From assembly GCF_014899185.1 (NCBI RefSeq), contig NZ_CP045201.1:3635501-3699500 (forward strand): DNA of 64,000 nt. The letters run 5' to 3'. Source of the DNA: Pseudooceanicola spongiae. GTDB taxonomy: Bacteria; Pseudomonadota; Alphaproteobacteria; Rhodobacterales; Rhodobacteraceae. The notes under the pieces were generated by a model. The model saw nothing but the letters and a program-made list of their open reading frames with translations, had not been told where the DNA came from and did no database searches. The number at the start of each line of letters is the position of its first letter. Position 1 is the first letter of the stretch. Shown here in pieces: positions 5,795-54,082 of this stretch. A program made the position numbers and the translations under genes.

Positions 5795-6240
5795 GGGCTG
5801 TCCTTCGTCGCTGCGCTCCGCAGAGCCGGGGGCGTGCTCAGGGTCTACGTCAGCCGGCACGCTCTGCCCAGAATAGCGCCGCTTGGCCGTGCTATAAATC
5901 CACAATTTGATGTATTATCGCACAAATGTTGTCTCAATCGACGGTGGAGCGGCGAGGCGCTGTCTCCGTCGATCACGGTCTGCCGCGTTAACCTGTCCGA
6001 TCCACGCGAAACCGCACCGTTCGGATACCGTTCAGATACCGACCGGATACCGACATCGCAAAACTGCCAATAGGTCATATTAACTTGAGCTTTGCGTCGA
6101 TCCGGCAAAAGGATGTCTGGGACGCGCCGAGCCCCCTGCGACATGGCCCGCCCGCCGCCTTCCCTTGCACCGGCGGGCGCGGGCCTTACCTATGAGACAG
6201 CACTGCGACGCCCCCCTAAGCGACCCAACAAAGGCCCTCT
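5795..6240. other. 446-bp divergent intergenic region with an A+T-rich promoter stretch
   Basis: No convincing gene lies in this gap between the allA-like operon (leftward) and the hemerythrin-like gene (rightward). Bases about 5890-5935 are clearly A+T-rich (TATAAATCC, TTTGATGTATTAT) and are the best place for the allA promoter and an operator. The 44-bp repeat element at 6014-6057 sits in the middle. A GC-rich hairpin-prone stretch lies at about 6145-6185. Confidence 0.5.
6014..6057 (+). repeat. 44-bp element, four 11-bp ACCG units (copy A)
   Basis: Four consecutive 11-bp units, each starting with an nnACCG core: GCACCGTTCGG, ATACCGTTCAG, ATACCGACCGG, ATACCGACATC. The cores start at 6014, 6025, 6036 and 6047, exactly 11 bp apart. 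The same architecture recurs at 35891-35934 and, inverted, at 54039-54082. This copy lies in a divergent promoter region. Confidence 0.85.
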
Positions 6241-35890: not shown

Positions 35891-35934
35891 GCACCGTTCA
35901 GTTACCGCCCGAATACCGACGGGATACCGACATC
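35891..35934 (+). repeat. 44-bp element, four 11-bp ACCG units (copy B)
   Basis: GCACCGTTCAG, TTACCGCCCGA, ATACCGACGGG, ATACCGACATC. The ACCG cores are exactly 11 bp apart. It sits between the recR stop and its terminator. A further isolated GCACCGTTCG occurs at 35942. Confidence 0.85.
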
Positions 35935-39928: not shown

Positions 39929-39983
39929 GGGGTATGCCCTACAGGCGCAGCTGGCGCCTGTAGCGGGGCAAGGTGAGAGGCTG

Positions 39984-40080
39984 GACAACGACCCAAGCGG
40001 GGCTCGTTACGGCTGCTTCCTTCCGGACCTGACCGGGTTGGCGAGGCGCTCGCCCGCGCCAACCTCTCGAGGGGTGATAT
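39984..40080 (-). ncRNA. ffs: Signal recognition particle RNA (4.5S-type, bacterial small SRP RNA)
   Basis: On the minus strand the sequence contains GGTCCGGAAGGAAGCAGCC, the universally conserved SRP RNA helix 8 loop that binds Ffh, flanked by pairing arms (CCTCGCCAACCC upstream, GCTTGGGTCGTT downstream). The arms CCCCTCGAGAGG and the 3' side fit the roughly 97-base alphaproteobacterial small SRP RNA. The ends given are approximate. In many alphaproteobacteria ffs lies just upstream of dnaX; here the metallopeptidase gene separates them. Confidence 0.93.
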
Positions 40081-54038: not shown

Positions 54039-54082
54039 GATGTCGGTATCTGGTCGGTATCGCGTCGGTAAGGGGGCGGTGC
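54039..54082 (-). repeat. 44-bp element, four 11-bp ACCG units (copy C, inverted)
   Basis: Read on the minus strand: GCACCGCCCCC, TTACCGACGCG, ATACCGACCAG, ATACCGACATC, again with exact 11-bp spacing and the same first and last units as copies A and B. This copy is between two converging genes (fnrL and usp), so it is not a promoter of either. Confidence 0.85.

Follow-up and report, generated by a model that had tools for sequence, protein, structure and literature searches.

Chi and KOPS are chromosomal sites that affect moving DNA enzymes in a directional manner, their polarity being linked to replication; they are 8-bp motifs read by the enzyme itself, are far more frequent than the elements considered below, and involve neither an array nor a separate binding protein. 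The REP/BIME elements, which are palindromic, occur in over 100 extragenic copies at gene 3' ends. Among protein-bound sites, those of SegB from the SegAB system of the Sulfolobales are recognized by a ribbon-helix-helix (RHH) protein which, in the portion of the published account drawn on here, occupies sites at its own promoter as well as scattered sites, with 39 ChIP peaks (PMC12284271). The parC/ParR system, as far as the excerpted source goes, combines tandem repeats, each taken by one small dimer, with autorepression (PMC5016525), while the operators of CarH/LitR are given in part of their description as three or four tandem 11-bp direct repeats (PMC9304148). Tandem 11-bp direct repeats in arrays of three or four likewise make up the elements of Pseudooceanicola spongiae described here.

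The window analyzed is a stretch of 64,000 nucleotides (G000:C1:3635501-3699500) of this organism, whose genome, G000, is a single contig of 4,365,781 bp. An earlier note had reported three copies of a four-unit, 11-bp repeat in it; these were found exactly at the positions, on the strands and with the sequences claimed, and in the gene contexts given for them, namely a divergent gap, a gap after a gene end and a convergent gap (Table 1). A pattern search for ACCG-N7 in fourfold repetition recovered only these three arrays in the window. The further statement that every copy ends in the unit ATACCGACATC is true of the window only; genome-wide, 40 of the 103 arrays end in this manner.

Table 1. 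Arrays and other features of the window (position 1 is its first letter)
Feature	Window position	Strand	Units	Genome position	Setting or remark
Array 1	6014..6057	+	GCACCGTTCGG ATACCGTTCAG ATACCGACCGG ATACCGACATC	G000:C1:3641516	Divergent gap, ureidoglycolate lyase gene (-) / hemerythrin gene (+)
GTTAAC adjoining array 1	5987..5992	.			Flanking motif, present at a subset of arrays
Array 2	35891..35934	+	GCACCGTTCAG TTACCGCCCGA ATACCGACGGG ATACCGACATC	G000:C1:3671393	recR (-) 3' end / alanine dehydrogenase/PNT-family gene (-)
Array 3	54039..54082	-	GCACCGCCCCC TTACCGACGCG ATACCGACCAG ATACCGACATC (on - strand)	G000:C1:3689544	Convergent gap, Crp-family gene (+) / Usp-family gene (-)
Bacterial small SRP RNA (RF00169)	39972-40068	-			Sole Rfam match in the window

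Across the genome the pattern ACCG-N7-ACCG-N7-ACCG-N7-ACCG recovered 53 + 51 matches, as against none for a backwards control pattern, and the copies thus clearly exceed chance, a check that the earlier note had proposed. Because one five-unit array was counted twice, these 104 matches represent 103 distinct arrays. Within 800 unselected contiguous kb there are 26 arrays with three or four units, approximately one per 31 kb; a weight matrix scored these 26 at 28.6 bits or above and nothing further above 14 bits, and recovered no array from the reversed sequence of the same stretch. Similarly, 222 kb that had not been chosen for their arrays (the window and the contig ends) contain nine arrays of at least 39 bits, the next-best match, at 17 bits, being a shifted register of a listed array. 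No degenerate array relics were detected with the weight matrix in these 222 + 800 kb of unselected G000 DNA. Based on gene calls from a purpose-written codon-usage script, 101 of the 104 matches are intergenic (overlapping called genes by at most 15 bp). Among the 99 matches with a called neighbor on both sides, convergent gaps are over-represented (35/99 vs 48/294 background gaps of at least 100 bp from the same fragments) and divergent gaps under-represented (11/99 vs 81/294), and the placement is biased toward gene 3' ends. The 103 arrays are spaced more evenly than they would be at random (CV 0.755 vs 0.987 +- 0.094); a strict runs test on their orientation along the chromosome was not significant.

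In sequence 97 of the 103 arrays are distinct and the spacer variants of different units are weakly linked (z 1.5-3.7); they are therefore unlike the products of recent copying from one master. Conservation extends beyond the 44 bp as an A/T tract at -5..-2, ATTT near +48..+51 and TTT at +57..+59. GTTAAC clusters beside the arrays, 36 of its 47 intergenic occurrences being within 110 bp of one in DNA that was sampled mostly around arrays. The arrays are composed of direct repeats only, with no hairpin or palindrome in them. An RNA element was considered and rejected: the window arrays have no Rfam match and the arrays show no strand preference relative to genes (30 '++' and 23 '--' with co-directional neighbors), which favors the protein-binding DNA array that the earlier note had suggested in its place.

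Within the genus, threefold TACCG-N6 is found in 4 of 22 genomes, with 121 matches in G000, 56 in G315, 10 in G314 and 9 in G001. A G000 array with homologous neighboring genes exists for 6 of the 7 arrays examined in G314, 4 of 7 in G001 and 12 of 48 in G315, and the orientation relative to these neighbors, judged by eye, is kept in 20 of the 22 pairs, the exceptions being L256/L070, where it is unclear or opposite, and L306/L076, which lie in different gaps. Flanks and spacers at these paired arrays have diverged between the congeners. Units 1 and 2 of the G000 arrays are mostly ACCGTTCAG, ACCGTTCGG or ACCGCCCGG, replacing ACCGACGYR. The family-wide pattern search that had been advised recovered three-unit TACCG matches in 18 of 295 genomes, with a maximum of 147; carriers among the matches listed include Roseovarius, Salinihabitans, Shimia, Silicimonas, Boseongicola and Sulfitobacter. 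Outside G000 many arrays (L133-L243, e.g. L226, L227 and L203) are situated between a GTTAAC left arm and a GTTAAC...GATTCG right arm, with all three marks present at 27 of 150. GTTAAC and GATTCG resemble CtrA and CcrM (GANTC) sites. A phage origin was rejected: 50 viral stretches (L342-L391, on AT-rich phage contigs) fit the three-unit pattern, nearly all by virtue of AT-rich, GTACCGACCAA-type 11-bp repeats that are unlike the G000 arrays and probably unrelated to them. The sole viral contig with a genuine-looking four-unit array, of TACCGAC core, is IMGVR_UViG_3300037791_000022 (L360, at ~7490).

A search for genes recurring beside arrays recovered a gene of the BrnA family, which in three genera is preceded by an array at a distance of 86-114 bp. 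In G000 it encodes a candidate binder of 119 aa (G000:C1:2582691-2583047, outside the window) that belongs to the family PF14384, from which membership an RHH domain is inferred. The BrnA-type genes of G315 and G001 have an array ~100 bp upstream as well, and for most such genes examined the distance is roughly 90-165 bp. Other gene pairs also recur beside arrays (presumably leuC/leuD, and arfB with a transporter gene, as named from sequence), and adjacency alone is hence no proof of a binder. However, an 11-bp array of score 3.2 or more precedes the own gene in 29 of 32 homologues (the 30 best-scoring family loci, G315 and G001) vs 32 of 717 control genes, with a few of the 29 (e.g. G135, G304) being weak by eye and the G000 control regions possibly containing real arrays; at a score of at least 4 the counts are 23/32 and 16/717. 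The homologue upstream regions display lineage-specific cores, usually with GTTAA or TTAAC close by. MerR/CarH and OmpR-type binders, which the 11-bp period had suggested, were set aside once the BrnA-type gene was found.

The phyletic distribution of the protein was compared with that of the arrays. Within the genus it is detected at E<1e-20 in G000, G315 and G001 only, and at 4e-5 to 5e-4 in G010, G009 and G007, while G314, with its 10 TACCG matches, has no match at E<=0.001. With a five-protein profile, 76 of the 295 family genomes gave a match at E<=1e-8, of which 18 reached E<=1e-30. At the latter cut the protein is present in 10 of 10 genomes with at least four TACCG matches vs 8 of 285 others; the cut was chosen post hoc, and the profile had been derived from array carriers that include two (G000, G138) of these ten. 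Among the eight genomes with 1-3 TACCG matches, G144 alone has it at E<=1e-30 and G103 at 1.7e-13; the remaining six have no profile match at 1e-8, including G074, G195 and G305, whose 2-3 matches are family-like arrays. These promoter and co-occurrence patterns suggest that the array is probably the binding site of a small protein present in many related bacteria.

All 26 aligned proteins are members of PF14384. Their putative strand (KVTLxLD) has a variable residue: 12 of 12 proteins with a GTCGGTA-type or close promoter core have Y there, and the lineages with other cores have M/L, W/R, N/R or A/S (alignment A2, by eye), a comparison that ignores kinship among the proteins. A monomer structure model of the candidate (pLDDT 75, pTM 0.45) has helices at 64-71 and 77-108, which fit a C-terminal RHH fold, but no strand, and the fold as such is not seen in it; it recovered no match with Foldseek, nor did profile searches recover a relative of solved structure, or the NCBIfam and PADLOC families match the candidate. 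Among 10 neighbor proteins scanned at six BrnA-type loci (three of these proteins matched no family) there was neither a BrnT toxin nor a ParA-type ATPase, and the neighbors scanned are of housekeeping types. A gene for a 68-aa cold-shock protein, identified as such with Pfam at three of seven loci, lies near the BrnA-type gene in seven genomes (L462, L457, L463, L464, L467, L472 and L478), which suggests an old shared locus.

The cores read from promoters, and the genomes in which they were expected, were fixed before genome-wide scans of 34 genomes each, and the named predictions were borne out in 8 of 9 genomes, the miss being G066. Threefold TATGG gave 152 matches in G086, 71 in G164 and 16 in G124, as well as 8 in G223 and 0-1 in the others, with G164 and G086 not fully blind on account of 37 and 4 backwards-control matches in the earlier TACCG family scan. 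Threefold TGCAC gave 38 in G250, 22 in G051 and only 1 in G066; threefold TCGGA gave 85 in G187, 55 in G083 and 47 in G190, with at most 2 elsewhere. A set of 35 unpredicted TGCAC x3 matches with a palindromic GTGCAC core was observed in G037 (e.g. L524, L528 and L531), where no BrnA-type protein was matched at E<=1e-8; these arrays possibly represent a further core with a diverged protein.

The orientation of the arrays is tied to local GC skew. On the ACCG strand G minus C is negative within 3 kb of 96 of the 103 arrays in G000 and 44 of 48 in G315, and all 26 arrays of the 800-kb stretch agree with this rule when 5 kb upstream are considered. The rule is also followed by 131 of 152 further TACCG arrays, most of which come from other genera (measured over 2 kb upstream, or the first kb downstream if the upstream side was short; the count includes four Pseudooceanicola arrays and excludes two Bacteroidales-bin arrays, one of which agrees, as well as L107, L110 and L122, which are unlike the family, and L116 and L132, which are from G000 itself). 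Agreement is best in Roseovarius (27/27) and G287 (13/13), and weak in Sulfitobacter (1/4), Shimia (3/5) and the mixed family loci (18/23). Around arrays with other cores, G exceeds C on the promoter-sense strand (within 1.5 kb) in 47 of 49 distinct cases from ten genomes, both misses being in G190 (excluded from this count are G037, the palindromic core of which is orientation-less, and the single or double matches in G025, G054, G312, G086 (TGCAC) and G190 (TATGG)). As the TGCAC arrays, which are not G-rich, follow the skew too, element composition is an unlikely cause. Gene direction is no explanation either: the element strand has a coding fraction of 0.56, and skew over whole genes is nearly equal for + and - genes.

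Since gene direction has its own effect at fourfold sites, both directions were averaged there. The skew is strongest at these sites, with its maximum at the array; an array-centered pattern is missing from first codon positions. In the 800 kb the averaged fourfold-site skew upstream is -0.276 within 1.5 kb and -0.163 at 7-10 kb, and downstream -0.148 in the first kb and -0.052 at 3.5-6 kb; the other G000 arrays and those of G315 display the same shape, reaching ~0 at 2-3.5 kb downstream. On the 5' side of the ACCG strand the skew takes more than 10 kb to fade, and on the other side it does so within ~3 kb. T minus A is near zero around the arrays, i.e. there is G/C skew without A/T skew. In G000, GC at fourfold sites is about.88-.90 upstream and drops to.83-.85 over the first 2 kb downstream; the corresponding values for G315 are.91-.92 and.88-.89. 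In the one genome used as an array-free control (400 kb of the congener G005) the s.d. of 5-kb fourfold skew is.082, still above the binomial expectation (~.037 in both genomes), vs.165 in G000, and its 5-kb lag correlation is.28 vs.63. Array score and skew strength are not significantly correlated (Spearman p 0.23). A change of skew sign at every array, forming an origin-like V, was dropped as the 800-kb profile is one of unequal decay on the two sides, and recent inversions as the source of locally reversed skew are disfavored by the array-centered decay. The peak at the array and the longer reach on the 5' side of the ACCG strand point to a process that starts or changes there and proceeds mainly one way.

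The origin of G000 lies near 3.217 Mb, as indicated by exact parS sites, and the terminus was taken as the point opposite it. With both placed in this manner, without recourse to GC skew, the CGGT strand is leading for 31 of the 42 arrays less than 1 Mb from the terminus and 31 of the 61 farther out. A first, post hoc cut had given 28/33. In G287 parS lies at 2.93 Mb, and a site resembling dif, with 2 mismatches, was located at 0.991 Mb, likewise independently of skew; a hand count found the CGGT strand leading in 20 of 24 arrays within ~0.9 Mb of this dif-like site.

Taken together, we consider it likely that the arrays are a chromosome-wide directional site system with a BrnA-type protein as its candidate binder, which supports the chromosome-wide role envisaged in the earlier note; the array appears to steer a large-scale DNA process. 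Dimers of the BrnA-type protein would occupy neighboring positions along the 11-bp direct repeats; the array upstream of its gene would provide autoregulation. For the last step we tentatively propose that the bound array may act with polarity on a machine that processes DNA, by halting it, loading it or converting it, in the way that Chi acts on RecBCD. Strand-specific recombination would then occur mainly 5' of the ACCG strand, over ~10 kb or more, and the incorporation of one strand polarity, with C:C mismatches presumably being repaired poorly, could result in G-to-C drift on the ACCG strand and might raise GC there. We favor a polar recombination site in that such biased incorporation would be compatible with G-to-C drift in the absence of A/T skew, and with the GC step. 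More generally, it is a plausible picture, though one to which we would not give quite even chances, that many Rhodobacteraceae chromosomes consist of ~30 kb directional domains, each headed by an array for a rapidly evolving BrnA-type protein, in which a one-way strand-asymmetric transaction (directed recombination or a secondary replication start) generates a sawtooth of GC skew, with the protein and the core changing together over more than 100 loci.

Alternatives to a polar recombination site were also considered. Were the arrays iteron-like, one-directional secondary replication starts dispersed over the chromosome, with the CGGT strand as the local leading strand for ~10-30 kb, this would account for a one-sided skew field that has the leading-strand sign and peaks at the array; the adjoining A/T tracts, the GTTAAC and GATTCG flanks of many arrays outside G000 and the leading CGGT strand near the terminus are also in keeping with it. 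Leading strands, however, commonly show both G/C and A/T skew, unlike the situation here, and ~140 starts per chromosome would be needed, for which we know of no bacterial precedent; we regard such starts as unlikely. The one-way decay over several kb could also be expected if directional export of DNA began at the arrays, whether by packaging into gene transfer agents or by mobilization of the chromosome, the skew resulting from one-strand uptake and recombination, and gene transfer agents are reported to be common in this bacterial group; but no tie of the protein to packaging or transfer was found, with no PADLOC match and the neighbors scanned being of housekeeping types, and export is rather improbable. 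Somewhat unlikely is a purely chromosome-organizing function by SegB- or ParR-like bridging or compaction. This function would suit a binder of the RHH family that has one array at its promoter and others scattered, as in the excerpted account of SegB (PMC12284271), and also the even spacing and the intergenic, gene-end placement of the arrays. The skew would then be a by-product, arising for instance if arrays were retained in one orientation relative to another strand-asymmetric process, but organization alone gives no account of a skew that peaks at the array and decays unequally.

Two further possibilities were considered. The earlier note had allowed for a dispersed mobile remnant, and a mobile REP-like repeat amplified in some genomes would agree with the high copy number and patchy distribution; nevertheless, relics are absent from the unselected DNA, most arrays differ from each other with weak linkage between unit variants, there is no palindrome, and positions and orientation are common to different species, all of which leaves very little room for this origin. 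That the arrays might be operators of a large ordinary regulon is suggested by their presence upstream of most BrnA-type genes examined, but the under-use of divergent and over-use of convergent gaps, and the want of a common theme among the array-neighbor genes inspected, render this barely credible, in line with the doubt already expressed in the note about a simple promoter operator.

GC skew is commonly interpreted as reflecting one origin and one terminus. In the genomes studied here, local skew is predicted by an array spanning a few dozen bases, across several genera and for four kinds of core, and origin or terminus calls from skew can mislead in array-bearing genomes. The arrays offer a natural experiment on the source of strand asymmetry, point to a protein of chromosome-wide reach in a large marine bacterial group, and present a case of one protein and more than 100 sites shifting specificity together. 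Topic and sequence-string searches of open-access full text recovered, among the papers listed, no prior description of the arrays or of such a protein in Rhodobacteraceae, which does not prove its absence, and neither these nor Rfam assigned the copies to a named repeat family, a possibility that had been marked for checking. To our knowledge no known site family marks a sawtooth of local GC skew, and on this account, as far as the sequences indicate, the arrays form a novel system of directional sites across the chromosome, together with a candidate protein that co-evolves with them. Relative to the earlier note, the likely binding protein, the lineage-specific cores and the apparent link to local GC skew are additions.

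Thus, in comparison with the known systems, the arrays share with REP/BIME elements their more than 100 extragenic copies and their location at gene 3' ends, but are direct repeats with no hairpin. With Chi and KOPS they have directionality in common, whereas the array structure and a separate candidate binder are found only here. The proteins of CarH/LitR, MerR-family light regulators acting at promoters in the part of the source used (PMC9304148), differ in family and distribution; promoter and co-occurrence evidence points to a PF14384 protein, not one of the MerR family, as the putative binder of the arrays. The likeness to parC/ParR lies in tandem repeats as the predicted target of a small autorepressing protein, but parC, as excerpted (PMC5016525), is one locus per plasmid beside the par operon, whereas more than 100 dispersed arrays are seen here with no ParM partner. 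The BrnA antitoxin of BrnTA shares the family PF14384 with 26/26 of the proteins; in contrast to BrnTA, there is no BrnT among the neighbor proteins scanned at the six loci and the arrays are spread chromosome-wide. In its logic SegB is, by analogy, the closest counterpart, with sites at the own promoter and scattered over the chromosome, which are recognized here from sequence alone. In the portion of the account used, SegB recognizes 13-bp palindromes that lie mostly within genes and whose core is similar from genus to genus, and it works with the ParA-like partner SegA (PMC12284271). The arrays, on the other hand, are intergenic 11-bp direct repeats with lineage-specific cores and a tie to GC skew, and no ParA-type ATPase occurs at the BrnA-type loci scanned. 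Considered by itself, the binder would amount to a modified form of a SegB-type system.
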